Origin: Companilactobacillus farciminis KCTC 3681 = DSM 20184
GTDB lineage: Bacteria; Bacillota; Bacilli; Lactobacillales; Lactobacillaceae
Assembly: GCF_002706745.1 (NCBI RefSeq)
Contig: NZ_CP017702.1
Coordinates: 310,001 to 374,000, forward strand
Direction of reading: 5' to 3'
DNA: 64,000 bases
Shown here: piece after piece, positions 28,401 to 44,623 of the stretch
How positions within the stretch are numbered: position 1 is the first letter of the stretch
How the letters are laid out: each line of letters starts with the position of its first letter
Program-made: the position numbers and the translations under genes
Notes under the pieces: model-generated
What the model was told of the DNA's origin: nothing
The model's input: the letters and a program-made list of their open reading frames with translations, nothing else
Databases searched by the model: none

Positions 28401-28440
28401 TAGGATTACTTTGAGTGGTTAAAGTGGTCCTATTTTTTTT
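28401..28440 (+). terminator. second terminator-like hairpin after argGH
   Basis: TAGGATTACTTT and AAAGTGGTCCTA pair around an eight-base loop and are followed by eight T. It may be a back-up terminator for argGH. Confidence 0.6.
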
Positions 28441-28601: not shown

Positions 28602-28632
28602 TCTAAGATTTTCTTATTTTACCCTTACCAAA
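28602..28632 (+). promoter_or_regulatory. 31-bp motif upstream of the acyltransferase-ligase-SBP operon
   Basis: The 31 bases start TCTAAGA, then TTCTTATT, then end ACCCTTACCAAA. The same motif lies at 40344-40374 on the minus strand upstream of the ligase-permease-ATPase operon. The two copies match at 27 of 31 positions; the four differences are two TT-to-AA changes. The distance to the start codon is similar (81 and 71 bases). It is most simply a shared operator or promoter. Confidence 0.7.
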
Positions 28633-28713
28633 TCATCAAGACCGTGCCACTACTGGGATGCTATAACTTATATATGCTTTAGAAACGGTAAGAAATGTAA
28701 CAGAGGTGACTTT

Positions 28714-29931
28714 TTGGCTGAAGTAAAAACTAGAAAAAAGAAATATCTCCATGAAGTGGACCTGATGCGCGTGCTTTTCATTGGTGGGGTGTTGTTGAAT
28801 CATACGACGACCGCCTTTAAAAATAATGTTGGCAATGGATCAGGTAGTGAATTGTTCTTAGAAGCTACTCACTTGGCACTTCACTTTACCAGAATGGGTT
28901 TCATGTTTATGACAGGGCTGGTTTTGGTACTAAATTATTACAATAAAGAACATCATTGGTTGAAGTTTTGGAAGAAGCGCTATATCAGCGTTGGGATTCC
29001 TTATATTGGTTGGAACGCCATTATGATGTGGTTTACGACTATCACTGCTGGCGTGGCCTTGAGTTGGCCGAACTATTTTCAAAATCTATATGACGCAATT
29101 ATTCACGGTAACAAGTTTTACATGTACTACATCTTAGTAACGTTCCAGTTGTACTTGATTTTCCCATTGCTGGTCTACATGTTTAAGAAATTTAAAAATC
29201 ATCATGTGGCAATTTTAGTAGCGAGTGCAATTATCCAATTACTATTAGTTATCGGAATTAAATACTGGTTGCCAGGCGTTGATCGTAGCAGTTGGTGGTA
29301 CTTGTTTAGAGCTTACGGAATGAATGTTTTGGTCTATCAATTCTACTTTGTAGCCGGAGCTTTCGTCGCTATTCACTATGATCAAGTTGATAAGTTTATC
29401 GAAAAAAATCACCGTGTGATCGGTTGGTCAACATTGGCTTTAGCAATTGGTACGGTTGCCTTATTCTTTGGAAATATCAATATTTTACATTTGAGTATGA
29501 GCGCAACATTGTCGATCCACCAACCATTCATTTTCATTTATGACACGTTCATGATTGTCTTTGTCTTCTGGATTGGACGCCAGTATGCCCATGCCAGAAA
29601 TCACGGTTTTCCAAATTGGTTAGAAAAAATTATTAAAAATATGTCAAAAGTTTCCTTTGGGATTTATTTAGTCCAAACAATTCCAGTAACAATGCTCTAT
29701 GGAATTTTAAGCGTAATCCATTTGCCTTCCATCGTAACGTTATTGTTGTTACCAGTCGGATATGCCTTTGTTTTAGGAGGATCATTCTTAATTTCTTGGT
29801 TCTGCTACAAGGTACCACCATTTGGAGTTTTAATTGGACGCCCACAACGTATATTTAGTGCAAAAAAAGCTAAAGGAGTAGTTGAAAATGTCAGAAATAA
29901 CGAATCAATTAAACAAACAGTTAAGGAATAA
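28714..29931 (+). CDS. membrane acyltransferase (acyltransferase_3 family)
   Basis: This integral membrane protein of about 405 aa has around ten hydrophobic spans. It begins with the family hallmark EVDLMRVLFIGGVLLNHT, with the catalytic His in the first span, and has the later FYMYYILVTFQLYLIFPLLVYM and SKVSFGIYLVQTIPVTM segments. Members (OafA/YrhL type) O-acylate surface sugars or glycopolymers. The TTG start at 28714 is chosen because AGAGGTGA lies six to eight bases upstream; the open frame upstream of it overlaps the hairpin repeat and has no ribosome site. It overlaps the downstream ligase by 44 bases and heads a three-gene operon. Confidence 0.88.
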   Translation: MAEVKTRKKKYLHEVDLMRVLFIGGVLLNHTTTAFKNNVGNGSGSELFLEATHLALHFTRMGFMFMTGLVLVLNYYNKEHHWLKFWKKRYISVGIPYIGWNAIMMWFTTITAGVALSWPNYFQNLYDAIIHGNKFYMYYILVTFQLYLIFPLLVYMFKKFKNHHVAILVASAIIQLLLVIGIKYWLPGVDRSSWWYLFRAYGMNVLVYQFYFVAGAFVAIHYDQVDKFIEKNHRVIGWSTLALAIGTVALFFGNINILHLSMSATLSIHQPFIFIYDTFMIVFVFWIGRQYAHARNHGFPNWLEKIIKNMSKVSFGIYLVQTIPVTMLYGILSVIHLPSIVTLLLLPVGYAFVLGGSFLISWFCYKVPPFGVLIGRPQRIFSAKKAKGVVENVRNNESIKQTVKE

Positions 29932-31405
29932 TATGAATCAAGAAATGATCAAGGATGAAAAGAGAAATCGTTGGTATCAAGGATTTGAACTTGCTGATGA
30001 TATTCGTATGTTACGCGAAGAATTCTTAGATCTACATATCGGATTTGGTGACGTAGTTTTGGTTTGTTTACCTAACACGGCGGCCTATCCTTTGATAACA
30101 CAGGCACTTTGGGAAGTTGGTGCCGTCATGCATCCAGTTGCTGCCACGACTCCAGAAAAAGAATTGCAGCAAGAACTAAAAGAACACGATTATGTAGCTT
30201 CTATCGTTGGTCAGACACTAGTTGATGCAGCTTTAGATGACCGTGTGGCAATTGTTTCAGCACTACACTTACAAACTTATTCTTTGTTACACATCATTCG
30301 TGATCGCAGTTTAATGGGCCACGATGCTAAAATTCCTGATGAAGATGATTTAGCGTTGATTATGAATACTTCTGGAACTACTGGAAAGCCCAAACGTGTT
30401 GGTTTGACTCACAGAATCTTGTTGAATGGTGTCAAACATGATATTGAAAGCCATAAGATGACATCCGAGGATACTAGTTTGCTAGTTATGCCGATGTTTC
30501 ACATTAACGCTCAAGCAGTTGTGATTTTAGCGACTAGATTGTCTGGTGGTAAGTTGGTGATTGCCGAAAAATTCAGTGCTTCGAAGTTTTGGAATCAAGT
30601 TAGAGAAAATAATGTTACTTGGGTATCAGTCGTGCCAACTATCGTCAATATCTTGTTGATCAATCAAAAAGCTAATGAAAATTATAGTGATGATATTCGA
30701 TTGCGCTTTGTCAGATGTTCATCCTTTGCTTTGCCACTCGATAAACTGACGACTTTTCAAACTCGATTCCACACGAGAATCTTGGAAGGCTACGGGATGA
30801 CTGAAACTGCTAGTCAATGTACGATTAATCCTTTCGATGCACCAAAAGTTGGTTCAGCTGGGAAACCTTTTGAAACTGATTTGGGAATTATGATTGATGA
30901 CCAAATTACTAAGCGACCTCAACAAATTGGTGAAATCGTTGTTCGCGGTGACCATGTTATTAGTGATTATCTAGATCCACATCCAGAATCTTTCAAAAAT
31001 GGATGGTTTTTAACTGGCGATTTAGGATATTTGGACGAAGATGGCTACTTGTTTGTTAAAGGACGCAAAAAAGACATCATCAACCACGGTGGCGAAAAAG
31101 TAGCTCCCGCACAAGTTGAAAATGTCTTGAGCCAATTGAATTTTGTCAAAGAGGTTTCCGTCATTGGTACGCCAGATACGCTTTATGGAGAAGCAGTAAC
31201 GGCAGTCGTTATCAGTGATGGTGAACAAGATGAAGAATTAGAACGTCAAAAAATCATGGCTCATGCCAAAGCGACTTTAGCTAATTATGAGCAACCAACG
31301 AGAATTTTTTTCGTCAATGACTATCCTCGTAATGCCACGGGTAAAGTCATTCGCTTGAAATTACGTCAACAAGTTATGTCAACTTTAGTTAGGAGTGCTG
31401 GATGA
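29888..31405 (+). CDS. AMP-forming acyl-CoA ligase (paralog 1)
   Basis: This 505-aa adenylate-forming enzyme activates a carboxylic acid with ATP and probably transfers it to CoA. Motifs are the P-loop NTSGTTGKPKRVGLTH, GYGMTETASQ (A5), GWFLTGDLGYLDEDGYLFVKGRKKDIINHGGEKVAPAQVE (A7-A8) and NATGKVIRLKL (A10 Lys). The ATG at 29888 has AAAGGAG nine bases upstream and lies inside the end of the acyltransferase gene. The gene overlaps the substrate-binding protein gene by four bases. It is a clear paralog of the ligase at 38770-40272 (same N-terminal MSE-T/I-LxxQL and identical P-loop core). The acid substrate is unknown; coumarate-, oxalate- or fatty-acid-type ligases are all possible. Confidence 0.88.
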   Translation: MSEITNQLNKQLRNNMNQEMIKDEKRNRWYQGFELADDIRMLREEFLDLHIGFGDVVLVCLPNTAAYPLITQALWEVGAVMHPVAATTPEKELQQELKEHDYVASIVGQTLVDAALDDRVAIVSALHLQTYSLLHIIRDRSLMGHDAKIPDEDDLALIMNTSGTTGKPKRVGLTHRILLNGVKHDIESHKMTSEDTSLLVMPMFHINAQAVVILATRLSGGKLVIAEKFSASKFWNQVRENNVTWVSVVPTIVNILLINQKANENYSDDIRLRFVRCSSFALPLDKLTTFQTRFHTRILEGYGMTETASQCTINPFDAPKVGSAGKPFETDLGIMIDDQITKRPQQIGEIVVRGDHVISDYLDPHPESFKNGWFLTGDLGYLDEDGYLFVKGRKKDIINHGGEKVAPAQVENVLSQLNFVKEVSVIGTPDTLYGEAVTAVVISDGEQDEELERQKIMAHAKATLANYEQPTRIFFVNDYPRNATGKVIRLKLRQQVMSTLVRSAG

Positions 31406-32379
31406 GTAAGAAAAAGAGAAATTTAAAAAAATTATTGATCAGTGTCGTCTTAGTCTTTTGGGCAGCGATTGCGATTTATGGCTTCAAACAGACTGATGCT
31501 GGAGCCGCTACTTCCGGATTAGAAACAGTGACGATCGGTTATCAAAAAGGTGATCCGTTCGATATTGCCAAGCAACGTGGTGAATTCTCTAAGAAAATGG
31601 AGAAGAAGGGCTATAAAGTAATCTTCAAAGAGTTCTCTGATGGAAATTCACTAATGCAAGCTTTGAAAGCTGGTAGTGTCGACTACGCTAGAACTGGAGA
31701 TACACCACCGGTTTCAGCACTTTCGACTGGAACTAAATTGACTTACATCGCCGCCAGTTCATCGAAGGCTAAAGGTTCTGGAATTTTAGTTAAGAATTCT
31801 TCGAGTGTTTCTTCGATTGAAGATTTGAAGGGTAAGAAAGTTGCCTATACTAAGGGAACTAGTTCTCAATACATGTTACTAGCAGCCTTGAAGAAAGCTG
31901 GTATGAGTGCTGATGACATTACTTGGGTCAACATGGATCAATCTAGTGCCAGCGTGGCCTTTTCAAAAGGTAAGGTCGATGCTTGGTCAACTTGGGACCC
32001 ATACACTTCACAAGCACAACTGACACAAAATGCTAAATTAGTGACAAATGGTGTTGGAATTACTAATAATCGTGATTATATTTTGACAACGCAAAGTTAT
32101 GCCAAGAAGAATACCGAAATTTCGAAGTATTTGATCAAGTATCTACAAGAAGATATGGAATGGGCTAACAACAATCATAGCGAGTTAATTACGATGATGA
32201 GTAAATCGTTGAAAGTTTCTAAGTCAGTCGTTAAGAAGATGGTAGAACGTCGGACTTATGGAATCAGTACGATGAATAGCACGTATGTTAAAGAAGAACA
32301 AAAGATTGCTGATTTGTTTTATGAAGAAGGTTTGATTGAAAACAAAGTTACAGTTAGCGATTCTGGAGATTATAAGTAG
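31402..32379 (+). CDS. SsuA-like ABC transporter substrate-binding protein
   Basis: This is an extracellular solute-binding protein (325 aa) of the nitrate/sulfonate/taurine class (NMT1/SsuA fold). It has VTIGYQKGDPFDIAKQRGEF, the ligand-site segment DYARTGDTPPVSAL and DLKGKKVAYTKGTSSQYMLLAALKKAG. The N-terminus has a basic start and a hydrophobic helix (about residues 11-28) but no lipobox Cys, so it is anchored or released at AxA-like DAGAA and not lipid-linked. It overlaps the ligase stop by four bases. Its cognate ATPase and permease are not here; the only matching ones are at 37224-38767 on the other strand. It is the third gene of the operon. Confidence 0.88.
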   Translation: MSKKKRNLKKLLISVVLVFWAAIAIYGFKQTDAGAATSGLETVTIGYQKGDPFDIAKQRGEFSKKMEKKGYKVIFKEFSDGNSLMQALKAGSVDYARTGDTPPVSALSTGTKLTYIAASSSKAKGSGILVKNSSSVSSIEDLKGKKVAYTKGTSSQYMLLAALKKAGMSADDITWVNMDQSSASVAFSKGKVDAWSTWDPYTSQAQLTQNAKLVTNGVGITNNRDYILTTQSYAKKNTEISKYLIKYLQEDMEWANNNHSELITMMSKSLKVSKSVVKKMVERRTYGISTMNSTYVKEEQKIADLFYEEGLIENKVTVSDSGDYK

Positions 32380-32384
32380 TAAAT

Positions 32385-32412
32385 GAGGCGGCCGTTGGGT
32401 CGTCTTTTTTTG
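32385..32412 (+). terminator. terminator after the substrate-binding protein gene
   Basis: GAGGCGGCC-GTTG-GGTCGTC forms a short G/C stem followed by seven T. Confidence 0.7.
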
Positions 32413-32535
32413 CCGTTAGATGTAACGATAACATAACGGTAAAATCTTGCCTTCCTAGTCAAAAGCAACCGTCAACTTCTAGTTAAATCATTCTGTGTTA
32501 GCTAAAATATTAAGTAATCAAAGGGGGATTTTTCG

Positions 32536-33048
32536 ATGAAAATTGGCTTGCAACTACAACAACAGCGAATACGTCACAATATGTCGCAGAATGATTTAGC
32601 CGAAAAACTAAATATTTCTCGACAATCGATTTCTAAATGGGAGAATGGTGGCAGTTTGCCTAGTTTTAATAATGTAGTGGCAATCAGTGATCTGTTTGAT
32701 ATTTCCTTAGATGAGTTGATTCGAGGGGATGAGGAATTGATGGACAAGTTTAAAGATGACGGAAAGATAAGATTAAATCATGTTGAAACTATTATTTTTG
32801 GTGGAATTGGATTAGGAATAGTTTTGTTGATTTTACTCGGATTATTTAAAATGCCCAGTGATATTGTTAAAGCCTGGATCCTCGTTATTGCCTTCGCGGG
32901 TAAATTAGGAGTACTTATGAATCTTGAGTGGAGGTACGTTAATCGCAGTTTAACAAAGAAGGCCGTTTTTGGGGGAGTTATAGTGATGGCTATGACCGTG
33001 ACTGACTCGTTACTTAGTATGTGGATAGGATTTACTGCAGGTCTATAG
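32536..33048 (+). CDS. XRE-family regulator with membrane segments
   Basis: The N-terminal HTH (QQQRIRHNMSQNDLAEKLNISRQSISKWENGGSLPSFNNVVAISDLFDISLDELIRGD) is followed by about 90 residues with three hydrophobic spans (about 83-103, 111-128, 143-165). It belongs to the same architecture as the protein at 6150-6596. GGGGGA lies about seven bases before the ATG. It is a stand-alone gene ended by a two-way terminator. It could be the local regulator of the flanking ligase/ABC operons, but nothing in the sequence proves that. Confidence 0.85.
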   Translation: MKIGLQLQQQRIRHNMSQNDLAEKLNISRQSISKWENGGSLPSFNNVVAISDLFDISLDELIRGDEELMDKFKDDGKIRLNHVETIIFGGIGLGIVLLILLGLFKMPSDIVKAWILVIAFAGKLGVLMNLEWRYVNRSLTKKAVFGGVIVMAMTVTDSLLSMWIGFTAGL

Positions 33049-33052
33049 CAAT

Positions 33053-33105
33053 CAAAAAAAACAGCATCTATTCAGAAAAAGGAATCCGAATAGATGCTGC
33101 TTGAT
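33053..33105. terminator. bidirectional terminator
   Basis: AAAAAACAGCATCTATTC and GAATAGATGCTGC form a stem with A/T tails on both sides, between the convergent XRE and SecB-like genes. Confidence 0.85.
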
Positions 33106-33108
33106 TTT

Positions 33109-33525
33109 TTAGTTGTTATCACTATCAGAAAAATCCAATACTGGTAAAGTCATAGCTGGAAAACCACTAGCAGAAGTCATCATCGAGACCATTGGTCTTA
33201 AATATGACAATAAGAGTGAAGCTCCTTCTGTCTGTAATAACTGCAAGGCGTCACTATGGGGAAGAAGTTCAGAGACTTGAAAAAGCGTCATGATTCTAGC
33301 AGTGATTGTGTAAGGAACGTTGTCATTTTCTTGATTGATAAAGATAGTTAAATAAACCGGAATATCATCAGTCCAATCAATCTCTTCTTCACTAGGCATT
33401 TCCACCAAAGTGCCAATATCAGCAGCATCGAAGTCATTTTCAAAATCAAAATCATCATTAACTTGGAAATCAAATTTTAGAACGGTAGGGTTCTCAAACT
33501 GTAAATACTTACTAGTCATGTTCAT
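33109..33525 (-). CDS. SecB-like (DUF1149-type) protein, 138 aa
   Basis: This soluble acidic protein ends with GFPAMTLPVLDFSDSD, similar to the C-terminal FPxLxLxPVDF of SecB export chaperones. The beta-rich body (VYLTIFINQENDNVPYTITARIMTLFQV) also fits the SecB-like fold, including the DUF1149 proteins of lactic acid bacteria. GGAGAAA lies six bases before the ATG. Its function in a Gram-positive host is not established. It is located just upstream, on the opposite strand, of a large secreted surface protein, which may be a coincidence. Confidence 0.6.
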   Translation of the reverse strand: MNMTSKYLQFENPTVLKFDFQVNDDFDFENDFDAADIGTLVEMPSEEEIDWTDDIPVYLTIFINQENDNVPYTITARIMTLFQVSELLPHSDALQLLQTEGASLLLSYLRPMVSMMTSASGFPAMTLPVLDFSDSDNN

Positions 33526-33653
33526 AAGCTTTTTCTCCAGTCATTTCTTACCATACTAGCATGGTTCCTAATTATTAACATTAATTTAGGTACAATATTT
33601 TAGTCATATTAGTAATGTCATAAGTTGTTATTATAATTTTTCTATTATGGATT

Positions 33654-33667
33654 AGAAAGCGCTTGCT
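33654..33667. promoter_or_regulatory. weak cre-like site before the WxL protein gene
   Basis: AGAAAGCGCTTGCT has the palindromic AAGCGCTT core of CcpA sites but deviates at both ends (consensus TGWAANCGNTNWCA). It lies about 70 bases before the GTG start, so it is only a candidate for catabolite control. Confidence 0.3.
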
Positions 33668-33737
33668 AAAGGTATATTATACTATTAAGTTAATAAGTTT
33701 AAACATGTTCTTTTATGAAATACAGGGGGCCTTAGCG

Positions 33738-36700
33738 GTGAGAAAGAAAAAAATAAAGATATGTTTTATATATGTCATGGCGTTGATTCTAGCGATTGTT
33801 GGTTTTACTACAAAAACAACGGTCATTTTTGCGGTGCCTTCGACCAGTGATGTGCTACAAAATGCTCCGGCCGGCATGAAAGTTAAAAATTATATGGATA
33901 AAGTCGATACATATTCTGGTGGAGGTACTAACCAAGCTAAAATCACATACGCTGGCGATGGTAACAATTATCCATCTGATACAGTTCAAATGTTGTCAGC
34001 TAAAGGCGGCTCAATGCAGTTGGGGTCTATTTGGGGTTCAACTACAGGGTCAGGAGCTACTTTAAATGGTAATTACTTTGATCTTTATAAACCGCAAAAA
34101 GTTTCTGTTTGGGTGTATATGGGTGACAGTGTCAGTCCAACGATTGATGGTTTAGCCTTTGTCATTCAAAATGATCCTAACGGCTATGATGCCATTTCAA
34201 GATATAATGGTGTACCAAAAGGTGGAGAGACGTTGGGAGTTTGGGGTGCTACCGCTGCACCTAAAGTGTTAAACACGGCTATTGATCTTGAAAAAAATGC
34301 GATTCAAAATAGCGTAGCCATTGAACTTGATCCAACCATTAATAGAGAAAATGATTGGTCTGATGATAATTCTTTTGATTCTAAGAATGGTGGAAATGAT
34401 TTAGATCCTAATCATATTGCGTGGGGTTATCCCGGACAAACTGGAACTTATATAAAAAATGAGAAGGTTGCTGATCTGATAGGGCTTGTCAAAAAGTATT
34501 ATTACGAAATGAATCATAGTATATTTAATGATTCCAATAATATGCCTATGACAGGTTATGATTATGAAGTTGTTGCTCCAGCTAATGGATGGCGTCATCT
34601 TGTGATTACTTATAGTCCAATTAAAAATTCTGACGATACTATTACGAGTGGAAAAATTAATTATTTGTTTAATGATCAATATCCAGATGGAACCAAGAAA
34701 TCATTTGGTCAATGGAACAGTGGTTCAGGAACGATTGATTTATCTGCTTTAAATGCTAAGGCTACTAGTGGTAAAGCTATGTGGGGCTTCACGGCAGCGA
34801 CGGGATCGTCAGGCTCGGCACAAAAGGATATCGAGATGGTCTTTGAAAATATGCCGATGGTCGCTAACGTAACATCCTCTGTAACTATGACTGATGTTTC
34901 ATCCGACCGTGTTATTGAAGATTACGACAAAAATAATAATAAAGCTAAGTCGACCGTCTACAATGGAACCAAACTTAATTTCGATTATCAACTTCATTAC
35001 GATTCAGGAATGGCCGACACTGGAGAAATCATGACTTCAATCAATTTGCCACAAAATGTCGATTTCAAGCCTAACTCTGGAACTAAAGTCGGTACGCTTA
35101 CTTATACCGCTAAAGATGGAACGAAAAAAACTGAAGAATTAAATTTTGATCAAATCACAGAAGGCAGCAATCTTAATGGCGATAAAATAAATGTCATTAA
35201 TTTAACTTTAGGTGCGCTCAGTTCAGCTAATCCAGATATTGAAATATCAATTGATGGAAAGGCTGTCGCACCGGATAGTCCTTCACTTACTTCCACGACA
35301 GTTAATGGGGAGCACACCTCATATCGTAGCGATGAGTATTCTGATGATGTCATGACGCCGATGTTTTTAATCAGCAATGAAAGTTTAAAAATAACTAATA
35401 GTAATGATTTGAAACAAACTGTTTTGAGTAACGAGAAAATCAATCTTGCTGGAACGGTTAAATATGAAAAAGGTTCAACTTTTAATGGTCAGTCACTTAA
35501 TGCCAAGGCGATAATTGATGGTGGTAAGGCAATTGACACTTGGACTGAAGAAACTACAGATGGTGCTAGTTCAGCAAGTTTTAATCGTAATATTAATGCA
35601 AGCAATTTGGAATTAGGAGACCATACGATTGAAATTCAGTTGATTGATAGCAATAACGTTATTTCTAATGTTTTGACGTATAACATACATATTGATGACT
35701 ATACGAATTTAGTTTTGACACCAGAAAGTGATACTGAATTTAGTGGTTATAAAGAAAGTAGTTTTAAGACCGCAGTGGGTGTGGTTTATGATAGTGAAAG
35801 TGAATTCTATGATACAACGCTTACTATGCATTGGATTTTAGATGGGGTAGAAACGACTGAAAGAGTAACAGGAAATGCTCATTTGGTAAATAGTTATGCT
35901 TTTCGGAATACATATGAAGGTTCTGATTTGGATGTGGGGAAACATGAGTTAGTCACTTATGTTTCTGACAGCAGGCGAGAATCTAACCGTATTACTTTCG
36001 AAATAAATGTTGGTGAAAGAAAATTAACGGCTAAAGCTAACCCAGATGTCGAAAATATCACAGTGACGAGTGATGAACAGAGACCACCATTTGATTTAGA
36101 TGGAACGTATGAGTTTTCTGACGGTTCAACTGAAGATAAGAAATTAACTGGAACTTATACTATCAAGAACGAAGGACAAGAGGCACAAGATCCAGTCGAT
36201 TTTTCAACTGTTGCCGATGGAAAGTTTAATTTTACTTTAAAGACGGTATATCAAAATGGAAATACTATCTCAGTACCGACAATCGATAAACGTATGGCTG
36301 ACCCTAAGTCGCCTGGTATTAGAGAAGGGCGTAATGAAATAACAGTCGAACTTCATAATTCAGATTATCAATCTAATACAGTAAAATTTGTGATTGATGT
36401 TCCTAAACTCACGCCAGTTATTTCGACTCCTGATGAGTATAAGGTCAGATCACGTAGTTATATTCAGGTGCCAATCACTTTTGAATATTCTAATGATCAT
36501 GACTATGTTGCTAAAGTTTCTAGTCTAACTGACTTTTATAAAGCTCATGATGCAGAAGATACTGCTTACGCGCATTATAGAACACCGACTGTTGAGCAAG
36601 GTTATAGTGGGACACCAGTTGAATATACTAGTTTTTTCCCAGGAACGAATGCTGGGATAACTGGTGATGGTTACCATACGGTCGATAGCGTTGCTTATGA

Positions 36701-37172
36701 TTCTTATGGAAGAAAGAGTAGTACAGAATTAGTAATAAATGTTAAGAGTAAGGAAATGTCTCTGAATGTCACTGATTATGGTTTTCAATCGCTTCGTTAT
36801 GGAGAAGTAACCACGATGGAAAGTGGACTTTTGAATAGAGCTGGTAAATGGGACATTACTGTTGATAGTTATAAAACGGCGTGGAAATTATATGCTAAAC
36901 AAAACGACTTTTTCTATAAGACCAATGCTGACGGCTCAAAATCGAAGATGGAAGCTTATTTAATTTATGAAAAAAATAAGAATGAAGTTCCGCTTTATCA
37001 CGATAACGTTTTGATAGCCTCTGAGACGGATAGTGGATTAGTGGAAAGATCAAGAGATGTCACCGAAGATTGGAATGATGACGATGGAATCTTCTTAAGT
37101 GTGGTCAATTATGGACAAGCAGGTACTTATGTAGGAACGATTGACTGGACTTTAACTGACAGTGTGCTATAA
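33738..37172 (+). CDS. large L-type lectin and WxL-domain surface protein
   Basis: This secreted cell-surface protein of about 1144 aa starts at GTG 33738, with AGGGGGC seven bases upstream. The signal peptide VRKKKIKICFIYVMALILAIVG ends near IFA-VPS. A legume-type lectin domain covers about residues 35-380 (WVYMGDSVSPTIDGLAFVIQNDP). Several Ig-like beta repeats follow (about 400-1050). The end carries two WxL motifs (AWKLYAKQNDFF and TIDWTLTDSVL), the C-terminal signature for non-covalent peptidoglycan binding; there is no LPxTG anchor. No other WxL or DUF916 (csc) genes are adjacent, so it is an orphan. It probably mediates adhesion to glycans. Confidence 0.85.
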   Translation: MRKKKIKICFIYVMALILAIVGFTTKTTVIFAVPSTSDVLQNAPAGMKVKNYMDKVDTYSGGGTNQAKITYAGDGNNYPSDTVQMLSAKGGSMQLGSIWGSTTGSGATLNGNYFDLYKPQKVSVWVYMGDSVSPTIDGLAFVIQNDPNGYDAISRYNGVPKGGETLGVWGATAAPKVLNTAIDLEKNAIQNSVAIELDPTINRENDWSDDNSFDSKNGGNDLDPNHIAWGYPGQTGTYIKNEKVADLIGLVKKYYYEMNHSIFNDSNNMPMTGYDYEVVAPANGWRHLVITYSPIKNSDDTITSGKINYLFNDQYPDGTKKSFGQWNSGSGTIDLSALNAKATSGKAMWGFTAATGSSGSAQKDIEMVFENMPMVANVTSSVTMTDVSSDRVIEDYDKNNNKAKSTVYNGTKLNFDYQLHYDSGMADTGEIMTSINLPQNVDFKPNSGTKVGTLTYTAKDGTKKTEELNFDQITEGSNLNGDKINVINLTLGALSSANPDIEISIDGKAVAPDSPSLTSTTVNGEHTSYRSDEYSDDVMTPMFLISNESLKITNSNDLKQTVLSNEKINLAGTVKYEKGSTFNGQSLNAKAIIDGGKAIDTWTEETTDGASSASFNRNINASNLELGDHTIEIQLIDSNNVISNVLTYNIHIDDYTNLVLTPESDTEFSGYKESSFKTAVGVVYDSESEFYDTTLTMHWILDGVETTERVTGNAHLVNSYAFRNTYEGSDLDVGKHELVTYVSDSRRESNRITFEINVGERKLTAKANPDVENITVTSDEQRPPFDLDGTYEFSDGSTEDKKLTGTYTIKNEGQEAQDPVDFSTVADGKFNFTLKTVYQNGNTISVPTIDKRMADPKSPGIREGRNEITVELHNSDYQSNTVKFVIDVPKLTPVISTPDEYKVRSRSYIQVPITFEYSNDHDYVAKVSSLTDFYKAHDAEDTAYAHYRTPTVEQGYSGTPVEYTSFFPGTNAGITGDGYHTVDSVAYDSYGRKSSTELVINVKSKEMSLNVTDYGFQSLRYGEVTTMESGLLNRAGKWDITVDSYKTAWKLYAKQNDFFYKTNADGSKSKMEAYLIYEKNKNEVPLYHDNVLIASETDSGLVERSRDVTEDWNDDDGIFLSVVNYGQAGTYVGTIDWTLTDSVL

Positions 37173-37218
37173 AAAAATCCTGAAATATCTATTAATTGAT
37201 AGATAATTTCAGGATTTT
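37171..37218. terminator. bidirectional terminator
   Basis: AAAAAAATCCTGAAATTATC-type arms: AAATCCTGAAATATCTA pairs with TAGATAATTTCAGGATTT, with A/T tails on both sides, between the WxL gene and the convergent ATPase gene. Confidence 0.85.
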
Positions 37219-37223
37219 TTTGA

Positions 37224-37958
37224 TTAAGCAGTTTGTTGTTGTACTTCGGGTTCTTCCAGAATTTCACCGAGAACTCGATCAGCGACGATGCCAATTTGAC
37301 CGGCATTGCGATTCTTAGGGCAGGTTTCTTCATAAGAGTTAGTTGAATCTTTCATGACAACGATGCGATCGGCCATGCGAGCAGCTTCTTCAACATCGTG
37401 GGTAACTAAGATAGTCGTTAAATTTTGTTTTTGGCAAATGTCTAAGATCAAATCTTGCATCTTGCGTCTTGTTAAAGCGTCCAAAGCTCCTAAAGGTTCA
37501 TCTAACAATAAAATTTTAGGATGTCTCATCAAAGCTCTAGCTAAGGCGACCCGTTGTTTTTGACCACCAGATAATTGGTTAGGGAAGTGATCGGCATAGT
37601 CGCCTAATTCAACTAAATCGAGTAGTTCTTTGGCATGCGCTTTAGTATTTTTATCTTTTGAACCAAAGGATAAATTGTCTAAAACGGACATCCAGGGAAG
37701 TAATCTGTCTTCTTGGAACATTACGCGAATCAAAGATTTTGTATCGTTAGAATTGATTTGAACTGAACCATTAGTTGGTTGTTCTAAGCCGGCGATGAGT
37801 CGTAACAAGGTACTTTTACCACCACCACTCATACCAACTAGGGCGATGAATTCACCTTGTTTGATGTCCAGACTGACATCGTGTAAAGCAGTTAAATTAT
37901 TATAAGTTTTATTTACATTTTTAATTGTGATCATTGAATTATTAATTAAATTATCCAT
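37224..37958 (-). CDS. SsuB-like ABC transporter ATP-binding protein
   Basis: This cytoplasmic ATPase (244 aa) has Walker A GMSGGGKST (residues 42-50), Q-loop VMFQEDRLLPW, signature LSGGQKQRVALARA, Walker B ILLLDEPLGALD and H-loop VTHDVEEA. The MFQEDRLLPW and AALDxLTR-type segments are typical of the nitrate/sulfonate/taurine importers (SsuB/TauB). The C-terminal extension of about 40 residues after the H-loop is longer than usual. The ATG overlaps the permease stop by one base. It is the last gene of the minus-strand operon ligase-permease-ATPase. Its partner binding protein is at 31402-32379. Confidence 0.93.
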   Translation of the reverse strand: MDNLINNSMITIKNVNKTYNNLTALHDVSLDIKQGEFIALVGMSGGGKSTLLRLIAGLEQPTNGSVQINSNDTKSLIRVMFQEDRLLPWMSVLDNLSFGSKDKNTKAHAKELLDLVELGDYADHFPNQLSGGQKQRVALARALMRHPKILLLDEPLGALDALTRRKMQDLILDICQKQNLTTILVTHDVEEAARMADRIVVMKDSTNSYEETCPKNRNAGQIGIVADRVLGEILEEPEVQQQTA

Positions 37959-38767
37959 TAAGCATTACTCCTTCCAGTATTTTGCCAATCTAATAAGAGA
38001 CTTTCAAAACTTTTAGCAACTAAATCAGAAATTTTACCAAGTACCGCGTAGACAACGATACATAAAATAACAGTTTCCATATCGACGAAGTCTTCAGCGT
38101 TGTTTGCCATATAGCCAATACCTGAACTAGCTGAAATAGTTTCGGCAACGATCAGAGTAGTCCACATTACACCTAAGGCGTAGCGAATACCGACTAATAT
38201 TTGTGGCAAAGCGGCCGGGAAAATGATTTTGAAAAACATTTGGCGTTTTGATAGTTCATATGAGTTACCCATTTCAATCAAATTTGGATCGACTGAACGA
38301 ATTCCATGGAAAGTATTGATATAGACGGGAAACATTGTTCCGATAGCAACTAGTGAAATCTTAGCTGATTCGTTGATACCTAACCAAAGGATAATTAGTG
38401 GAATCAAAGCCAAATGGGGGATGTTACGAAACATTTGAATCGATGAATCAAATAGTAAGCGGCAAGTGTTGGACATTCCGTTGATAAATCCAAGGATAAA
38501 ACCAACGCCACCACCGATTATGAGTCCGACTGTAGCTCGATAAAGACTGATACTGAGATTTTTGGGAAGTTCTCCAGATTGCGTTAATTCAATACCATCT
38601 TGTAAAACAGCTAAGGGAGAAGGCAAAACTGAGCTTGATAACCAACCTAGAGTGCTACTAACTTGCCAAAATAAAATCACGATAATGGGGATTAAGAAAG
38701 GCAAGATTTTGTCGACTGGCAGATTGATTTTTTTACGTGTCGTCGTTAAAGTCATCGGCTTTTGCAT
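37958..38767 (-). CDS. SsuC-like ABC transporter permease
   Basis: This membrane permease of 269 aa has six predicted spans and the EAA-loop segment (GNSYELSKRQMFFKIIFPAALPQILVGIRYALGVMW) of binding-protein-dependent importers of the SsuC/TauC class. AAGGAGG, which lies inside the end of the ligase gene, precedes the ATG by seven bases, and only two bases separate the ligase stop from the ATG. It is the middle gene of the operon. Confidence 0.92.
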   Translation of the reverse strand: MQKPMTLTTTRKKINLPVDKILPFLIPIIVILFWQVSSTLGWLSSSVLPSPLAVLQDGIELTQSGELPKNLSISLYRATVGLIIGGGVGFILGFINGMSNTCRLLFDSSIQMFRNIPHLALIPLIILWLGINESAKISLVAIGTMFPVYINTFHGIRSVDPNLIEMGNSYELSKRQMFFKIIFPAALPQILVGIRYALGVMWTTLIVAETISASSGIGYMANNAEDFVDMETVILCIVVYAVLGKISDLVAKSFESLLLDWQNTGRSNA

Positions 38768-38769
38768 GA

Positions 38770-40272
38770 TTAAGCCTCCTTTTTTTGTTGAACCACTTCT
38801 TGAGCTAGAAGTGTACGTTGAATTTTTCCAGTTGCATTCTTAGGTAATTCAGTACTAAAAATGTATTTTGTGGGGCGTTCAACAGGTAATAATTGCTCAT
38901 TTGCTAATTCGTTCAACAAGGCCAATTGGTGGCGATGATCATGACTGAGTTTCTTAGGGACGATAACGGCGGTGACAGTTTCACCATAAATTAAATCAGG
39001 AGTACCAACGACGGCTACTTCGCGGATAAATTTTAAATTGTGCAAGCAATCTTCGACAGCGAGTGGATTAACATTTTCACCACCACGAATAATCATTTCT
39101 TTGCTACGACCAGCGATCTGTAGGTAGTCATTGTCATCCAGTGAACCGAGGTCTCCAGTCAATAACCAACCATCGTGGAAGGCTTCAGGCTGAGGATCCA
39201 AATAATGAGTAATGACACTGTCGCCTTTGAGAGCAATTTGTCCGATTTTGTTCTTTCCAACTTCGTGATAGTTATTATCAAAAATTTTAATTTGTGTTCC
39301 AACAACTTTACCAACAGTTTTTTGAATAGGTTGGTTGAGTGGATTTTGGGCAATTTGACTAGCAGCTTCGGTCATGCCGTAACTTTCAATTAGCGGAATG
39401 TCGAAACGTTCTTTAAATTGTGCGTGGATGCTTGGGAGGAGAGGGGCTGAAGCAGTCCGGAGAAATCGCAAGTTAGTGTGAGTTGGTTGTTCATCACGTT
39501 GTAATAAGATGGCGATGATAGCTGGTGTCAATGAAACCCAGGTTACCTGTTCACTACTAACTTCCTTCCAGAAAAGATGAGCGCTGAATTTAGGACGAAA
39601 TAGCAGTTGTCCATGAGATAAGCGGGTTGCCAAATTTGAAATAACCATCGCGTTAATATGAAACATTGGCATTAAGATAAAGGTGCTATCTTGGTCAGTC
39701 AATTCTTCACTGTCGATGACGTTAAAAGCTCCAGCTAAAAGTTGTTTGTGAGTTAGACCAACTCGTTTAGGTTTGCCAGTAGTTCCAGAAGTATGCATGA
39801 TCAAAGCAATTTGGTCATCTTCCGGCGTTTCTGCTAAATGGGCGATGTGCTTGTTGCGAACGAAGATTTGTACTTCTGATTCGTGCAAGGTCGTCAAACG
39901 AGGTTGATTAGTAAAAATATCGTTTAAAAATTTTAATTCTTGAATATCAGAGTCAAAAATAATAGCTGAATAATGATATTGGTCTTCAAGTTCACTGATT
40001 TGAATTTCAGTGGCAGCAGGATTCAAGGTTTGAACGATACTACCAATTTCCCAAAGACTTTGAATGACCAAAGAGTAAGTAACTGAATTTGTTAAGCTAA
40101 CTAAAACGATATCGTTGTGACCGATACCTTTATTTTTCCAATAATTTTTCCATACGTTTTTTTCTAAGTTAAGTTCACTGCCGGTGTACCAATGCTGATT
40201 TGCATCTTGCATTAAAGGACGAGTAGCGCCAGCAATCAATTGTTGTTGTAATCTTTCAGTAAGTTCTGACAT
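38770..40272 (-). CDS. AMP-forming acyl-CoA ligase (paralog 2)
   Basis: This adenylate-forming ligase of about 500 aa resembles paralog 1. Motifs are HTSGTTGKPKRVGLTH, ESYGMTEAASQ, GWLLTGDLGSLDDNDYLQIAGRSKEMIIRGGENVNPLAVE and PKNATGKIQRTLL. The start is taken as ATG 40272 (MSELTERLQQQL), matching the N-terminus of paralog 1; GGTGA lies seven bases upstream, and a longer frame starts at 40308. It heads the operon with the permease and ATPase. The two paralogs look like old duplicates, since their sequences differ over most of their length. A pair of related acids may be handled, or the same acid under different conditions. Confidence 0.87.
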   Translation of the reverse strand: MSELTERLQQQLIAGATRPLMQDANQHWYTGSELNLEKNVWKNYWKNKGIGHNDIVLVSLTNSVTYSLVIQSLWEIGSIVQTLNPAATEIQISELEDQYHYSAIIFDSDIQELKFLNDIFTNQPRLTTLHESEVQIFVRNKHIAHLAETPEDDQIALIMHTSGTTGKPKRVGLTHKQLLAGAFNVIDSEELTDQDSTFILMPMFHINAMVISNLATRLSHGQLLFRPKFSAHLFWKEVSSEQVTWVSLTPAIIAILLQRDEQPTHTNLRFLRTASAPLLPSIHAQFKERFDIPLIESYGMTEAASQIAQNPLNQPIQKTVGKVVGTQIKIFDNNYHEVGKNKIGQIALKGDSVITHYLDPQPEAFHDGWLLTGDLGSLDDNDYLQIAGRSKEMIIRGGENVNPLAVEDCLHNLKFIREVAVVGTPDLIYGETVTAVIVPKKLSHDHRHQLALLNELANEQLLPVERPTKYIFSTELPKNATGKIQRTLLAQEVVQQKKEA

Positions 40273-40343
40273 AAGTAGTTCACCATGTCCTTTCGATTGA
40301 ATAAACATAGTTTACAATCATTGGGTTGAGGTAACTACTTAGG

Positions 40344-40374
40344 TTTGGTAAGGGTTTAATAAGAATTTCTTAGA
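40344..40374 (-). promoter_or_regulatory. 31-bp motif upstream of the ligase-permease-ATPase operon
   Basis: This is the second copy of the motif seen at 28602-28632. Read on the minus strand it has TCTAAGA, TTCTTATT and ACCCTTACCAAA in the same order and spacing (27 of 31 identical). It lies 71 bases upstream of the ligase start. Confidence 0.7.
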
Positions 40375-40380
40375 AAGTTT

Positions 40381-40414
40381 GCCGTCCTCCATAGCAAAGC
40401 AAATTTGGCTGGAA
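40381..40414 (-). repeat. structured repeat, copy J (first half, split by the IS element)
   Basis: GCCGTCCTCCATAGCAAAG and AAATTTGGCTGGAA match the end of copy F (45257-45430) in reverse. The copy is interrupted by the IS3-family element at 40415 and resumes at 42111. Confidence 0.75.
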
Positions 40415-40469
40415 TGCACTCTGCCTTGTCAAGTTGACATTTCAATAGAGTTAAAATTATAAAACATAT

Positions 40470-41363
40470 TTAAATGGCTTTATTCCGGTATTCCGCTGGA
40501 GTAAAGCCATTTATTTTGTCTGATCTATCTTGATTGTTAAAGTAATCTATTCCTTCTTTAACTAGATTCTTCAACTCTTCCAGCGTAGCTGGTGTAGGAT
40601 GAAGATCCATCCAACGTAATTTAAAATCGTTCCACCAGCGTTCCATTGGTGAATTATCATAAGGAGTCCCTGGTCTGGACATACTTCTAGAAACTTTATG
40701 TTGTGCTAGTAATTTATTAAAACTGTTAGCTACATAAGCTGACCCTCGGTCCGTATGGACCATAGGGTGCACGTCTCCTTCATTTTTAAATACTTCTTCA
40801 AACATGGTCATTTCAGCTTCTGCCGTCTCAGTGGGTGTTATTATGTATCCCAATAGAAAACGTCCATAAAGATCCAATATTCCACTTAGTCGTACTTTGT
40901 ATCTTTTATTTGGTCCATATTCTATTTGTGTTGAATCTGTTAGCCAAACTTCATTTGGCTTAGTAACTTTAAAATTTTGATCTAAGATATTATCTTGAAT
41001 ATATTTTTCTTCTTTTTCTTTTCTATTTATCTTTTTCTTCCGTACTTTACAAACAAGATTCAATTCATTCATTACTCTTCTTACTCGTTTTAATGATAAT
41101 TTAAATCCTAGTTTATTTTCGTGTATAAGATGAGTAAGTATTTTACCTGCTCCAACACTTCCATTGTGTTCTTCATATATTCTCTTAACATGTTTTTTTA
41201 GAGTTCTGTCTTGTTTTTCCCAGACAGTTTCTTTACGATTAATGCTTTTGTGATAGGCTTGTCGACTGACACCTATGTACTCTAATAGGATAGTTTCCCA
41301 TCCATGATGGCTTTGACATACTTCCTTTATCGCTTGGTAAGCATGCCTATGCTGTTTGTTCAC
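40470..41363 (-). CDS. IS3-family transposase OrfB (DDE catalytic subunit)
   Basis: This 297-aa integrase-core protein has the catalytic residues in VWLTDSTQIEY (first Asp), HTDRGSAYV (second Asp) and NSPMERWWNDFK (Glu). An HTH_21 segment (GAGKILTHLI) precedes the core. The GTG start (41363) lies inside the end of orfA. Only a weak GGGGA precedes it, so it is probably made as an OrfAB fusion by -1 frameshifting on the A8 run (about 41389-41396) inside orfA. Confidence 0.93.
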   Translation of the reverse strand: MNKQHRHAYQAIKEVCQSHHGWETILLEYIGVSRQAYHKSINRKETVWEKQDRTLKKHVKRIYEEHNGSVGAGKILTHLIHENKLGFKLSLKRVRRVMNELNLVCKVRKKKINRKEKEEKYIQDNILDQNFKVTKPNEVWLTDSTQIEYGPNKRYKVRLSGILDLYGRFLLGYIITPTETAEAEMTMFEEVFKNEGDVHPMVHTDRGSAYVANSFNKLLAQHKVSRSMSRPGTPYDNSPMERWWNDFKLRWMDLHPTPATLEELKNLVKEGIDYFNNQDRSDKINGFTPAEYRNKAI

Positions 41364-42040
41364 TCCCCACGCTGGATTTCTTCGAATTTTTTTTCAAAAG
41401 CCTCTATAGCGTTACGTTTATTTAATTCAGCCTTTAATTGTCTATTTTCTAGTTTTAATTTATCAACTTCTGTTAAACTCTTTTCTTTGACGTAACCTCT
41501 GCGTCCTCGCTTATCAGCGAGGGCAGAGTATCCTTGTTTCTTCACGATTAATACCCAATTGCGTACTTGTTGATAGGAAACTTGAAAATGTTCCGAAGCT
41601 TCAGAGTATGAATGTTTTTGAAGAGTTACGTATTCAACTACTTCAATTCTTTCTTCAAGAGTGGTTTTCTTCGACATTGTAACGACCTTCTTTCTAACAG
41701 GCGTAGCCTTGATTAGATTCTTGTCATTATTATACTGTATTATCCAATATCTCAATTGTTTAGAAGAACGTAGTTTAAACTTTATAGATACTTCTTTAAG
41801 AGTCCCTTCGCCATTAAGATAAGCACTGACAGCTTGAATCTTAGTCTCATAACTATATTTCTTGGGAACTTGAGGGATTAATCCCTTTTCACCGTATGCT
41901 TGAAATAAGGTAAGCCAACCTCTAGCAGTAATAGGATTAACTCCGATTGATCTGCAATATTCTGTAAATATTATTTCTGACTTTACTTTCAAATAGTCTT
42001 TAATTATTTTTATCTTGAACTCTGATTCGTACTTCTTCAT
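41360..42040 (-). CDS. IS3-family transposase OrfA
   Basis: This DNA-binding subunit of about 226 aa contains two helix-turn-helix segments (TEYCRSIGVNPITARGWLTLF near the N-terminus and SYSEASEHFQVSYQQVRNWVLIVKKQG) and a C-terminal leucine-zipper-like coiled coil (VDKLKLENRQLKAELNKRNAIEAFEKK). The start is taken as ATG 42040 because GAAGGGA lies seven bases upstream. A run of eight A near its 3' end is a likely slippery site for producing OrfAB. Confidence 0.9.
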   Translation of the reverse strand: MKKYESEFKIKIIKDYLKVKSEIIFTEYCRSIGVNPITARGWLTLFQAYGEKGLIPQVPKKYSYETKIQAVSAYLNGEGTLKEVSIKFKLRSSKQLRYWIIQYNNDKNLIKATPVRKKVVTMSKKTTLEERIEVVEYVTLQKHSYSEASEHFQVSYQQVRNWVLIVKKQGYSALADKRGRRGYVKEKSLTEVDKLKLENRQLKAELNKRNAIEAFEKKFEEIQRGE

Positions 42041-42110
42041 AAAAAAATCCCTTCTGATTTTCATCTGAAATTATTCCATTTCATATGTCAACCACAAAGG
42101 GAGTATAGCA

Positions 42111-42156
42111 GAACAATGTGGGCACGACTTGGAGCCTTTGCTATTCCGGACTAGAT
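42111..42156 (-). repeat. structured repeat, copy J (second half)
   Basis: GAACAATGTGGGCACGACTT and GGAGCCTTTGC continue the sequence cut at 40414. A deletion then joins directly to TATTCCGGACTAGAT, so the middle of the element (about 90 bases) is missing. Confidence 0.75.
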
Positions 42157-42306: not shown

Positions 42307-42530
42307 GCTACAGTTATTTAGCTACAGTTATTTAGCTACAGTTATTTAGCTACAGTTATTTAGCTACAGTTATTTAGCTACAGTTATTTAGCTACAGTTA
42401 TTTAGCTACAGTTATTTAGCTACAGTTATTTAGCTACAGTTATTTAGCTACAGTTATTTAGCTACAGTTATTTAGCTACAGTTATTTAGCTACAGTCATT
42501 TAGCTACAGTCATTTAGCTACAGTCATTTA
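42307..42530. repeat. 14-bp tandem repeat, 16 units
   Basis: GCTACAGTTATTTA is repeated head to tail exactly 16 times (224 bp). The first 13 units have GTTA and the last three have GTCA. The array has no spacers and lies 15 bases past the stop of the histidine-kinase gene. The unit length is not a multiple of three, so no long ORF runs through it. Confidence 0.95.
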
Positions 42531-42545
42531 GTTAAATTTATATAT

Positions 42546-43934: not shown

Positions 43935-44623
43935 TTGGCAACATTCTCAAGTGAGTATCCGACGCCACGGATCGTTTGAATCAAGGGTTTGGTATTTTTG
44001 CCATCGACTTTGCTACGTAGATATCCGACATAGACATCGACCACATTTTGTTGACCGAGAAAGTCTTCGCCCCAAACGTTATCGAGTAATTCATCACGGG
44101 TAAAGACCTTGCCGATATGTTGTAGAAAGAACAGCAATAAATCATATTCGCGGCGAGTTAATTGAACATTTTCGTTATTACGAGTAACTTGGTGTGATTT
44201 GGTATTTAAAGTTAAATCAGCAATTTGATAAGTTTGATCGGGTTCAGACATATTTTGGGCACGACGTTTAATGACACGCACTCTAGCTAATAATTCTTCA
44301 ATTTCAAAAGGTTTAGTAATGTAGTCATCGGCACCATTGTCCAATCCGGCAACCTTATCGCCAACGTAATCTCTAGCTGTCATGACGATTACGGGAACTT
44401 GATCATGTTTTCTGATTCGACGCAAAACTTCCATGCCGTCTAATTTTGGCAGCATCCAGTCTAATAGAATCAGTAGTAAATCATTTTGATGTTTTTCATA
44501 GAGGTCCAAAGCTTCAATTCCATCATTGGCAACAATGACATCGAAATCCTCAAATTGGAGCTCTTTACTAACATAACTGGAAAGACTGCGCTCGTCTTCG
44601 ACAATTAAAATTGTATTTTTCAT
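43931..44623 (-). CDS. OmpR-family response regulator
   Basis: This 230-aa regulator has an N-terminal receiver (phosphorylated Asp55 in LLDWMLPKLDGMEVL, Lys in TKPFEIEELLARV) and a C-terminal winged-helix DNA-binding domain (LTRREYDLLLFFLQHIGKVFTRDELLDNVWG...VDVYVGYLRSKV). It is the first gene of the two-component operon. It faces the Zur-like gene across a 134-base shared promoter region. Its targets are not apparent in the window. Confidence 0.95.
   Translation of the reverse strand: MKNTILIVEDERSLSSYVSKELQFEDFDVIVANDGIEALDLYEKHQNDLLLILLDWMLPKLDGMEVLRRIRKHDQVPVIVMTARDYVGDKVAGLDNGADDYITKPFEIEELLARVRVIKRRAQNMSEPDQTYQIADLTLNTKSHQVTRNNENVQLTRREYDLLLFFLQHIGKVFTRDELLDNVWGEDFLGQQNVVDVYVGYLRSKVDGKNTKPLIQTIRGVGYSLENVAK

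Follow-up and report, generated by a model that had tools for sequence, protein, structure and literature searches.

A candidate importer, ligase and acyltransferase cassette split between two operons in Companilactobacillus farciminis

Membrane acyltransferases of the AT3 type use acyl-CoA as donor and acylate extracytoplasmic acceptors (PMC9833829, PMC9558356, PMC12423673). An R-X10-H motif is found in these proteins, and an RXXR motif on TMH3, the motif of OafB, has been described as highly conserved (PMC9833829). In SsuA, the binding protein of sulfonate importers, contacts with the sulfonate are made by Q36, G68, G86, S141 and the pocket tryptophan W185 (PMC3839906). The words "ligase" and "ABC transporter" are absent from the main text of a review of AT3 proteins (PMC9558356), and an earlier description of a cassette combining such an acyltransferase with an acyl-CoA ligase and an importer was not found in the open-access literature searched. 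Here, we analyzed a stretch of 64,000 nucleotides from C. farciminis KCTC 3681 = DSM 20184 (the window), for which the original prediction proposed that two acyl-CoA ligase operons on opposite strands share one SsuABC-like importer.

Two opposite-strand operons and their products

The plus-strand operon (28714-32379) encodes the acyltransferase (AT), ligase 1 and the substrate-binding protein (SBP), and the minus-strand operon (37224-40272) encodes ligase 2, the permease and the ATPase, with junctions that overlap or nearly abut (29882/29931, 31402/31405, 37958, 38767/38770). The open reading frames and coordinates of both tight operons were confirmed, and the Pfam and NCBIfam families agree with the predicted gene content (Table 1). 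The open reading frame of AT reaches back to 28567, and a TTG start at 28714 agrees with its relatives; ligase 1 has an alternative in-frame ATG at 29888. Terminator-like hairpins lie before the plus-strand operon (28401-28432) and right behind it, at a count for the region (nine terminator-like sites) that shows no enrichment over shuffled sequences (9.0). No riboswitch or T-box was detected at Rfam gathering thresholds in the window and the three loci searched. In this strain an IS is located directly upstream of ligase 2, and expression of the minus-strand operon may therefore be altered.

Table 1 Features of the two operons, with the evidence for each assignment
Feature	Position	Strand	Evidence
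AT (AT3 membrane acyltransferase, stand-alone)	28714..29931	+	PF01757, R19-X10-H30
Ligase 1 (AMP-forming acyl-CoA ligase, AT-linked clade)	29882..31405	+	PF00501/PF13193, tree, motifs
SBP (SsuA-like, N-terminal membrane anchor, no lipobox)	31402..32379	+	TIGR01728, Foldseek, pocket residues
Terminator-like hairpin 3' of plus-strand operon	32385..32406	+	consensus match only
ATPase (SsuB-like ABC)	37224..37958	-	PF00005; SsuB model best in NCBIfam, below cut-off
Permease (SsuC-like ABC)	37958..38767	-	PF00528; SsuC best in NCBIfam; co-occurrence with SBP
Ligase 2 (AMP-forming, distinct clade)	38770..40272	-	PF00501/PF13193, tree

AT matches Acyl_transf_3 (PF01757) with 111.2 bits against a cut-off of 31 and has no SGNH domain. 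R19-X10-H30 in its first helix is invariant (52 of 52 aligned relatives), and half of the OafB RXXR motif is kept, with R89 in 52/52 and W, F, Y or L at position 86. The structure model (pLDDT 90.5) had no significant match in the PDB, the best weak ones being HGSNAT. Among the 120 of 200 matches listed, each organism-named relative belongs to the Lactobacillaceae and is annotated merely as acyltransferase.

Both ligases consist of AMP-binding and AMP-binding_C domains (PF00501/PF13193). The two are not equivalent, being 39% identical and falling into different clades of the tree. Ligase 1 groups with AT-linked ligases from other genera, while the members of the separate ligase 2 clade all come from Companilactobacillus, apart from one genome outside this genus (G050). 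One genome (G102) lacks ligase 1 and retains both the AT-SBP pair and the ligase 2-permease-ATPase set, indicating that ligase 2 can serve as the sole ligase. The motifs TSGTTGKPK, YGMTE and TGD, together with R395 and K488, all of which we take to be catalytic, are conserved across 126 distinct ligases. The nearest solved relative of ligase 1 is the oxalate-CoA ligase 5ie0 (229.5 bits), a similarity that tells nothing certain about the acid used.

The importer subunits differ in how closely they fit their models. SBP (Pfam NMT1) scores above the cut-off of TIGR01728 SsuA_fam (220.9 versus 163.5 bits), whereas the permease (BPD_transp_1) and the ATPase (ABC_tran) remain below the cut-offs of their nearest NCBIfam models, SsuC (313.6 versus 347) and SsuB (240.9 versus 395). 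That these are the only SsuA, SsuB and SsuC proteins holds within the close family, but the genome also encodes one importer nearest to TauABC (C1:1538424-1540943). This second set is self-contained, and as it is both complete and TauABC-like, a role as supplier of missing parts was rejected; another complete set pairing with the split halves, the counter-case named in the original prediction, was not found. The absence of an SsuD monooxygenase was borne out for the whole genome, which has no PF00296 match (the control matched in 10 of 14). A plasmid search returned 211 records, every one below 60% identity; the 30 listed are all SsuA homologues (34-38%) in Rhizobium, Ensifer and Pantoea.

Co-occurrence and gene order

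Co-occurrence was assessed in 301 Lactobacillaceae genomes. SBP is present in 66 of these and the permease in 67, namely the same 66 and one 76%-complete genome; AT was found in 75 and the ligase in 76, again the same 75 plus that incomplete genome. All genomes with SBP or permease lie within the ligase set, and every one of the 66 importer genomes carries AT and ligase. The pairing of SBP with the permease in 66/66 SBP genomes strongly supports the view that the split halves form one importer, and on the same count independent occurrence of the two operons was rejected. Against this rejection stand Levilactobacillus fujinensis (G301) and the metagenome-assembled L. faecigallinarum (G305), both outside the 301-genome comparison, in which AT-ligase-SBP is present and the permease, without a match at E <= 1e-20, has either been lost or is missing from the assembly. 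In nine of the 301 genomes AT and ligase occur without the importer, which suggests that the pair can work alone; since all importer genomes possess the pair, AT and ligase seem to form a core that the importer feeds.

Gene order points the same way. In 47 of 57 loci examined, all five genes lie on the same strand within 6.5 kb of SBP, in several orders. Fourteen of the 66 importer genomes, among them all 11 of Companilactobacillus, encode the permease on the other strand. Co-occurrence and one-strand clustering elsewhere thus indicate one conserved cassette that was split in this lineage, and they strongly support the predicted coupling of the importer to ligase and acyltransferase. The cassette was also identified in Enterococcus hermanniensis, with AT as two ORFs, and in Streptococcus gallolyticus, and a locus from outside the order (L208) has a related arrangement in which the ligase faces the other way. 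Among the organisms named for SBP relatives are Lacticaseibacillus paracasei, Leuconostoc mesenteroides and Pediococcus siamensis. Three genomes (G101, G121, G145) have no AT or ligase beside SBP and carry homologues elsewhere; in the latter two AT and ligase adjoin each other, away from SBP. Clustering of flanking ORFs revealed no additional neighbor shared across genera, and further candidate neighbors were rejected as clusters recurring only inside a genus or close group. The ATP-synthase genes near two loci (L032, L043) are housekeeping genes judging by their sequence.

Ligand pocket, proposed pathway and alternatives

The fold of SBP was compared using Foldseek. The top five matches were all SsuA (2x26, 3ksx, 3ksj and 3e4r among the top; E 6e-31 to 1e-28), followed by TauA (4e-23, 2e-22), another SsuA-named entry (5e-19) and the remaining NMT1-like proteins at 9e-18 and weaker. 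All five sulfonate-contact residues (Q, G, G, S and Trp) are present in the window SBP. Across 96 distinct SBPs, Q48 is kept in 95 and G81, G99 and W198 in all; the S141 contact position holds Ser in 75 and Thr in five (80/96 together), and Ala was found at the S154 contact in 15. None of the 96 shows a lipobox pattern. Compared by alignment with SsuD-linked SBPs, the cassette pocket has Ser or Thr in place of the hinge Glu and has gained D51 and R97; these two residues and S/T126 discriminate the two groups. R97 and S126 also occur in the SBPs of two loci with neither AT nor SsuD seen adjoining (L209, L210; excluded from both groups in the comparison), and these marks are therefore not exclusive to AT-ligase loci. 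The idea that Arg at 224 signals a further negative charge in the ligand was rejected, because 10 of 15 SsuD-linked SBPs also have it. Given R97 and S126 in L209 and L210, and the negative charge contributed by D51 and D/N80, a dianionic ligand stays a guess. The predicted placing of a carboxylic acid on a surface polymer would be compatible with the enzyme families, but the pocket residues favor a sulfonate-like ligand over just any carboxylic acid.

The protein families, their co-occurrence and order, the retained catalytic residues and the SsuA-type SBP are computational observations, and we consider it somewhat probable that together they describe a cassette for import, activation and attachment. 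In this scheme, the importer, comprising the anchored SBP, the permease and the ATPase, would take up a small anionic acid, most likely recognized by its sulfonate or a group resembling one. The AMP-forming ligase or ligases would then link the carboxyl group of this acid to CoA, and AT would present the acyl-CoA through the membrane and acylate an extracellular acceptor, for which a hydroxyl on a glycan or teichoic acid of the cell envelope is the most likely candidate. We infer the substrate, CoA as its acceptor, the direction of transfer and the extracellular acceptor. In Companilactobacillus and close kin the genes form convergent split operons, and the diverged ligase 2, placed with permease and ATPase, perhaps serves a second acid. 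A more specific version, which we regard as rather unlikely, is that an acid with a carboxylate as well as a sulfonate, such as sulfoacetate, sulfopropionate, sulfolactate or cysteate, becomes sulfoacyl-CoA and is placed on a wall polymer, ligase and acyltransferase having replaced the SsuD step of an ancestral importer and the cell sulfonating and charging its own surface instead of obtaining sulfur.

It appears unlikely that an SsuABC-derived importer takes up an ordinary carboxylic acid, be it aromatic, dicarboxylic (oxalate, for instance) or a short fatty acid, for subsequent CoA ligation and surface acylation. The AMP-forming ligases with their oxalate-CoA relatives, the varied ligands of other NMT1-type SBP groups among the PDB matches and the Ala at the S154 contact would suit such an acid; the nearly invariant Q48, G81, G99 and W198 and the precedence of SsuA and TauA over all other NMT1-like proteins in Foldseek argue against it. 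A plain sulfur-scavenging Ssu importer, with ligase and acyltransferase in some desulfonation of unknown kind or as mere neighbors, would explain why SBP is nearest to SsuA in sequence and fold and why its Bacillales relatives reside in ssuA-ssuD-ssuC-ssuB loci. We nevertheless hold it to be quite improbable in a genome without an SsuD-type protein, with AT and ligase accompanying the importer in 66/66 genomes and persisting without it in nine, and with a pocket consistently unlike that of SsuD-linked SBPs.

By locus titles and ecology, the cassette hosts are for the most part fermentation-associated lactobacilli, as would fit detoxification of a plant or food acid or sulfonate that is imported, ligated to CoA and esterified to an acceptor for export. 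Actively importing a toxin in order to neutralize it would be uneconomical, however, and no additional gene is common to the flanks across genera, making this explanation highly improbable.

Relation to described systems

The AT-ligase pair occurs in a quarter of the sampled Lactobacillaceae (75/301), in 66 of them with the importer, and the annotation labels "aliphatic sulfonate transporter" and "acyltransferase" conceal what may be a coherent pathway. If the cassette reading is true, these bacteria would obtain from food or host the acid with which they decorate their surface, and the retention of an Ssu-type importer in fermentative bacteria that lack a desulfonating monooxygenase would be explained.

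With SsuABC(D) of the E. coli, X. citri and B. subtilis type, the cassette shares an Ssu-type SBP with its sulfonate contacts, permease and ATPase. It differs in having an AMP-forming ligase and an AT3 acyltransferase in the place of SsuD, and in SBPs that are membrane-anchored at the N-terminus, without a lipobox (0/96) and with altered pocket residues. The AT3-only O-acyltransferases of the ExoH, OpgC/MdoC and IcaC type likewise have a stand-alone AT3 domain with R-X10-H; in contrast to these, the cassette AT is accompanied by its own acyl-CoA ligase and importer, has half of the OafB RXXR motif, and forms a family of its own with its close relatives. The oxalate-CoA ligases AAE3/Pcs60 are the nearest solved relatives of ligase 1, a likeness of similarity only. 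D-alanylation by DltABCD is a functional analogy, in which an AMP-forming enzyme likewise activates the group that is then transferred onto an envelope polymer, and the genome has what we take to be a separate DltA/DltB-like pair (C1:2209919-2212661). Unlike DltABCD, the cassette has no carrier protein, uses an AT3 rather than an MBOAT protein, and would act on an imported substrate.

Co-occurrence and layout of the two operons

Within one set of 301 Lactobacillaceae genomes, the SsuA-like substrate-binding protein (SBP; E <= 1e-70, a post hoc cut-off, with the weakest match kept at 9e-74 and the next genome at 9e-23) was found in 66 genomes and the SsuC-like permease (E <= 1e-45) in 67, both being present in 66; the permease-only genome, G261, is 76% complete. 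The AT3 acyltransferase (AT; E <= 1e-45) was detected in 75 genomes and the ligase (E <= 1e-55) in 76, both occurring in 75 with G261 again the exception. All SBP and all permease genomes of this set fall within the ligase set, and 225 genomes carry none of these genes. Fisher values overstate the significance of these associations because the compared genomes are related. On comparative evidence, the two operon halves are best described as one system, and the original prediction of a single importer shared between two opposite-strand ligase operons is supported by the joint occurrence of SBP and permease in 66 of 66 SBP genomes.

A further 20 genomes were picked in which no permease was seen beside the AT-ligase locus, or a ligase alone was seen. 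In twelve of them a close permease is encoded at another site (E <= 1e-99), G320 has a distant one only, and seven gave no permease match at E <= 1e-20; six of these last eight represent loci without a close SBP. The other two of the eight, Levilactobacillus fujinensis and L. faecigallinarum, encode AT-ligase-SBP, with no permease found at E <= 1e-20. The predicted pairing in relatives thus holds throughout the 66 SBP genomes but not in these two species, which either count against strict pairing or reflect draft-assembly gaps.

The source genome is a single contig (C1) of 2.55 Mb, on which the window occupies C1:310001-374000, and its closest named relatives are Companilactobacillus formosensis and C. 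futsaii (98% and 96% for ligase 2). Neighbouring genes overlap or abut in both operons. Terminator-like hairpins lie 3' of SBP and 5' of AT, although such matches are no more frequent than in shuffled sequence.

Features of the locus and importer-like loci elsewhere in the genome
Feature	Position	Strand	Remarks
AT	28714-29931	+	AT3 family; plus operon
Ligase 1	29882-31405	+	AMP-forming ligase; plus operon
SBP	31402-32379	+	NMT1/SsuA family; plus operon
SecB-like protein	33109-33525		Gram-positive host; PF02556 30.4 bits, cut-off 26; in 10/17 close loci (L005-L021)
Large secreted surface protein	33663-37172		between both operons; no Pfam or NCBIfam match; among scanned relatives' loci only in C. 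futsaii (L017), 78%
ATPase	37958-37224	-	SsuB-like; minus operon
Permease	38767-37958	-	SsuC-like; minus operon
Ligase 2	40272-38770	-	AMP-forming ligase; minus operon
Two-ORF insertion element	about 40378-42135		transposase ORFs 40470-42064; between histidine kinase and ligase 2
Tandem array	about 42350-42540		~14-base unit (GCTACAGTTATTTA type); downstream of histidine kinase gene, adjoining insertion element
Response regulator and histidine kinase	42546-44623		upstream of ligase 2
NMT1-like secreted protein	C1:459318-460280 (L188:4319-5281)		distant; adjoining listed ORFs without permease or ATPase
TauABC-like set	C1:1538424-1540943 (L186:8425-10944)		complete, with lipoprotein SBP; neighbour presumably a flavoprotein with rhodanese-like tail

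The insertion element lies upstream of ligase 2 at a distance of ~70-105 bases, according to the start codon chosen, so that expression of the minus operon is uncertain in this strain; the C. formosensis (L005) and C. futsaii (L017) loci showed no relative of the element's transposase. The two-component pair occurs upstream of ligase 2, about 0.1 to 7 kb away, in all 17 close loci (L005-L021) and may therefore regulate the cassette.

Gene order and ligase distribution

For 57 of the 66 SBP genomes, loci were fetched and their gene order examined. In 47, all five genes (AT, ligase, SBP, permease, ATPase) share a strand and lie at most 6.5 kb from SBP; in six, AT-ligase-SBP is present and the permease is encoded at another site. 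The G102 locus reads AT-SBP, that of G101 AT-SBP-permease-ATPase, and those of G121 and G145 SBP-permease-ATPase; homologues absent from the last three loci are present elsewhere in the same genomes. The orders perm-ATP-AT-lig-SBP, AT-lig-SBP-perm-ATP, AT-lig-perm-ATP-SBP and perm-ATP-SBP-lig-AT were all seen, and this variation speaks for a functional link over a chance one. The nine SBP genomes outside this count, the source and eight other Companilactobacillus, all carry the permease on the opposite strand from SBP, 2-6 kb off, a split found in 14 of the 66 genomes (these nine, G003, G102, G050, G234 and G201); G147 and G068 have cassette parts on different contigs. Enterococcus hermanniensis (with AT as two ORFs) and Streptococcus gallolyticus also carry these genes joined together, and in L208, a locus from a Bacilli genome outside the order, AT-SBP-perm-ATP adjoins a ligase on the opposite strand. 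Across the class, 26 of 398 sampled genomes gave an SBP match at E <= 1e-60; 20 loci were fetched from these genomes, and most of those lying outside the order were linked to SsuD.

Catalytic motifs are retained in 126 distinct ligases, 93 of which (thinned at 85% identity) were placed in a tree by a quick method with SH-aLRT support only. Ligase 1 falls into a group of 16 rows (SH-aLRT 99) with the AT-linked ligases from Companilactobacillus, Levilactobacillus and G050, and ligase 2 forms its own clade of Companilactobacillus and G050 (12 rows, SH-aLRT 100); the long branches flagged lie outside both clades. Two-ligase cassettes were also seen in Liquorilactobacillus, Weissella, Paucilactobacillus and S. 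gallolyticus, which makes repeated gain of a second ligase probable. In G102 (L159, L182), AT-SBP is retained, ligase 1 is absent and the sole ligase is ligase 2, with permease and ATPase, suggesting that ligase 2 can serve alone and offering a natural test of whether it can feed the acyltransferase. The source genome's only other ligase 1 matches (E <= 0.001) are a protein nearest MenE, below cut-off, and a DltA-like protein.

Substrate-binding protein

Among solved proteins, SBP is nearest to the SsuA proteins of E. coli (155 bits) and X. citri, and its AlphaFold model (pLDDT 93.6) best matches SsuA (TM-score by target 0.92), followed by TauA and other NMT1-type proteins. Sulfonate contacts of SsuA, as listed in PMC3839906, are conserved in the SBP family. 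Pocket or near-pocket positions were compared between 96 cassette SBPs, which are related and include close species, and 15 control SBPs encoded in ssuA-ssuD-type loci of Bacillales (the adjoining SsuD is over cut-off in 14 and sub-threshold in L211; L212 was left out for want of an SBP ORF). Residue 126 is Ser/Thr in 96/96 cassette SBPs versus Glu in 13/15 controls; the equivalent Glu106 of TauA is required for taurine binding according to PMC6906117. Asp51 (95/96 versus 2/15), Arg97 (95/96 versus 2/15) and Asp/Asn80 (89/96 versus 0/15) likewise differ, and R224 does not discriminate (92/96 and 10/15). Not every one of these marks is confined to AT-ligase loci: the AT-linked SBP of L208 has D51, D80, R97 and S126, and those of L209 and L210, beside which no AT or SsuD was seen, have R97 and S126 without D51 or D80. 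Conserved sulfonate contacts in an altered pocket suggest that SBP binds sulfonates but differs in its specificity for the tail. By a simple pattern, no lipobox was found in 96/96 cassette SBPs, against 10/15 controls with one. Residues 1-32 form an N-terminal helix or membrane anchor with near-invariant A24 and G27, and this conservation suggests contact with a partner in the membrane.

Acyl transfer and comparison with known systems

The R-X10-H motif of AT (ACYLTRANSFERASE) is invariant in 52/52 aligned sequences, among which the RXXR motif is half present. No PDB entry matched the AT model (pLDDT 90.5) significantly, and the best of the weak hits are to human HGSNAT with acetyl-CoA (E 0.2); PMC12423673 unites the HGSNAT family with AT3.

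Based on protein families, an acid would be imported by the Ssu-type importer, adenylated and then ligated to CoA, after which the acyl-CoA would be presented through the AT3 pore and the acyl group transferred to an acceptor outside. Classical sulfur scavenging is an unlikely use of the importer, since no PF00296 (SsuD-type) protein occurs anywhere in the genome, as the original prediction had stated for the SsuD monooxygenase. AT and ligase occur together in every AT genome and the importer is absent from nine (G014, G074, G111, G127, G151, G185, G253, G282, G295), so the core function appears to be acyl transfer, fed by the importer; the source of the acid in these nine genomes would hint at its identity. 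The individual parts are already known; no description of a combination that couples an Ssu-type importer to acyl-CoA ligase and AT3 acyltransferase was found in the open-access papers searched.
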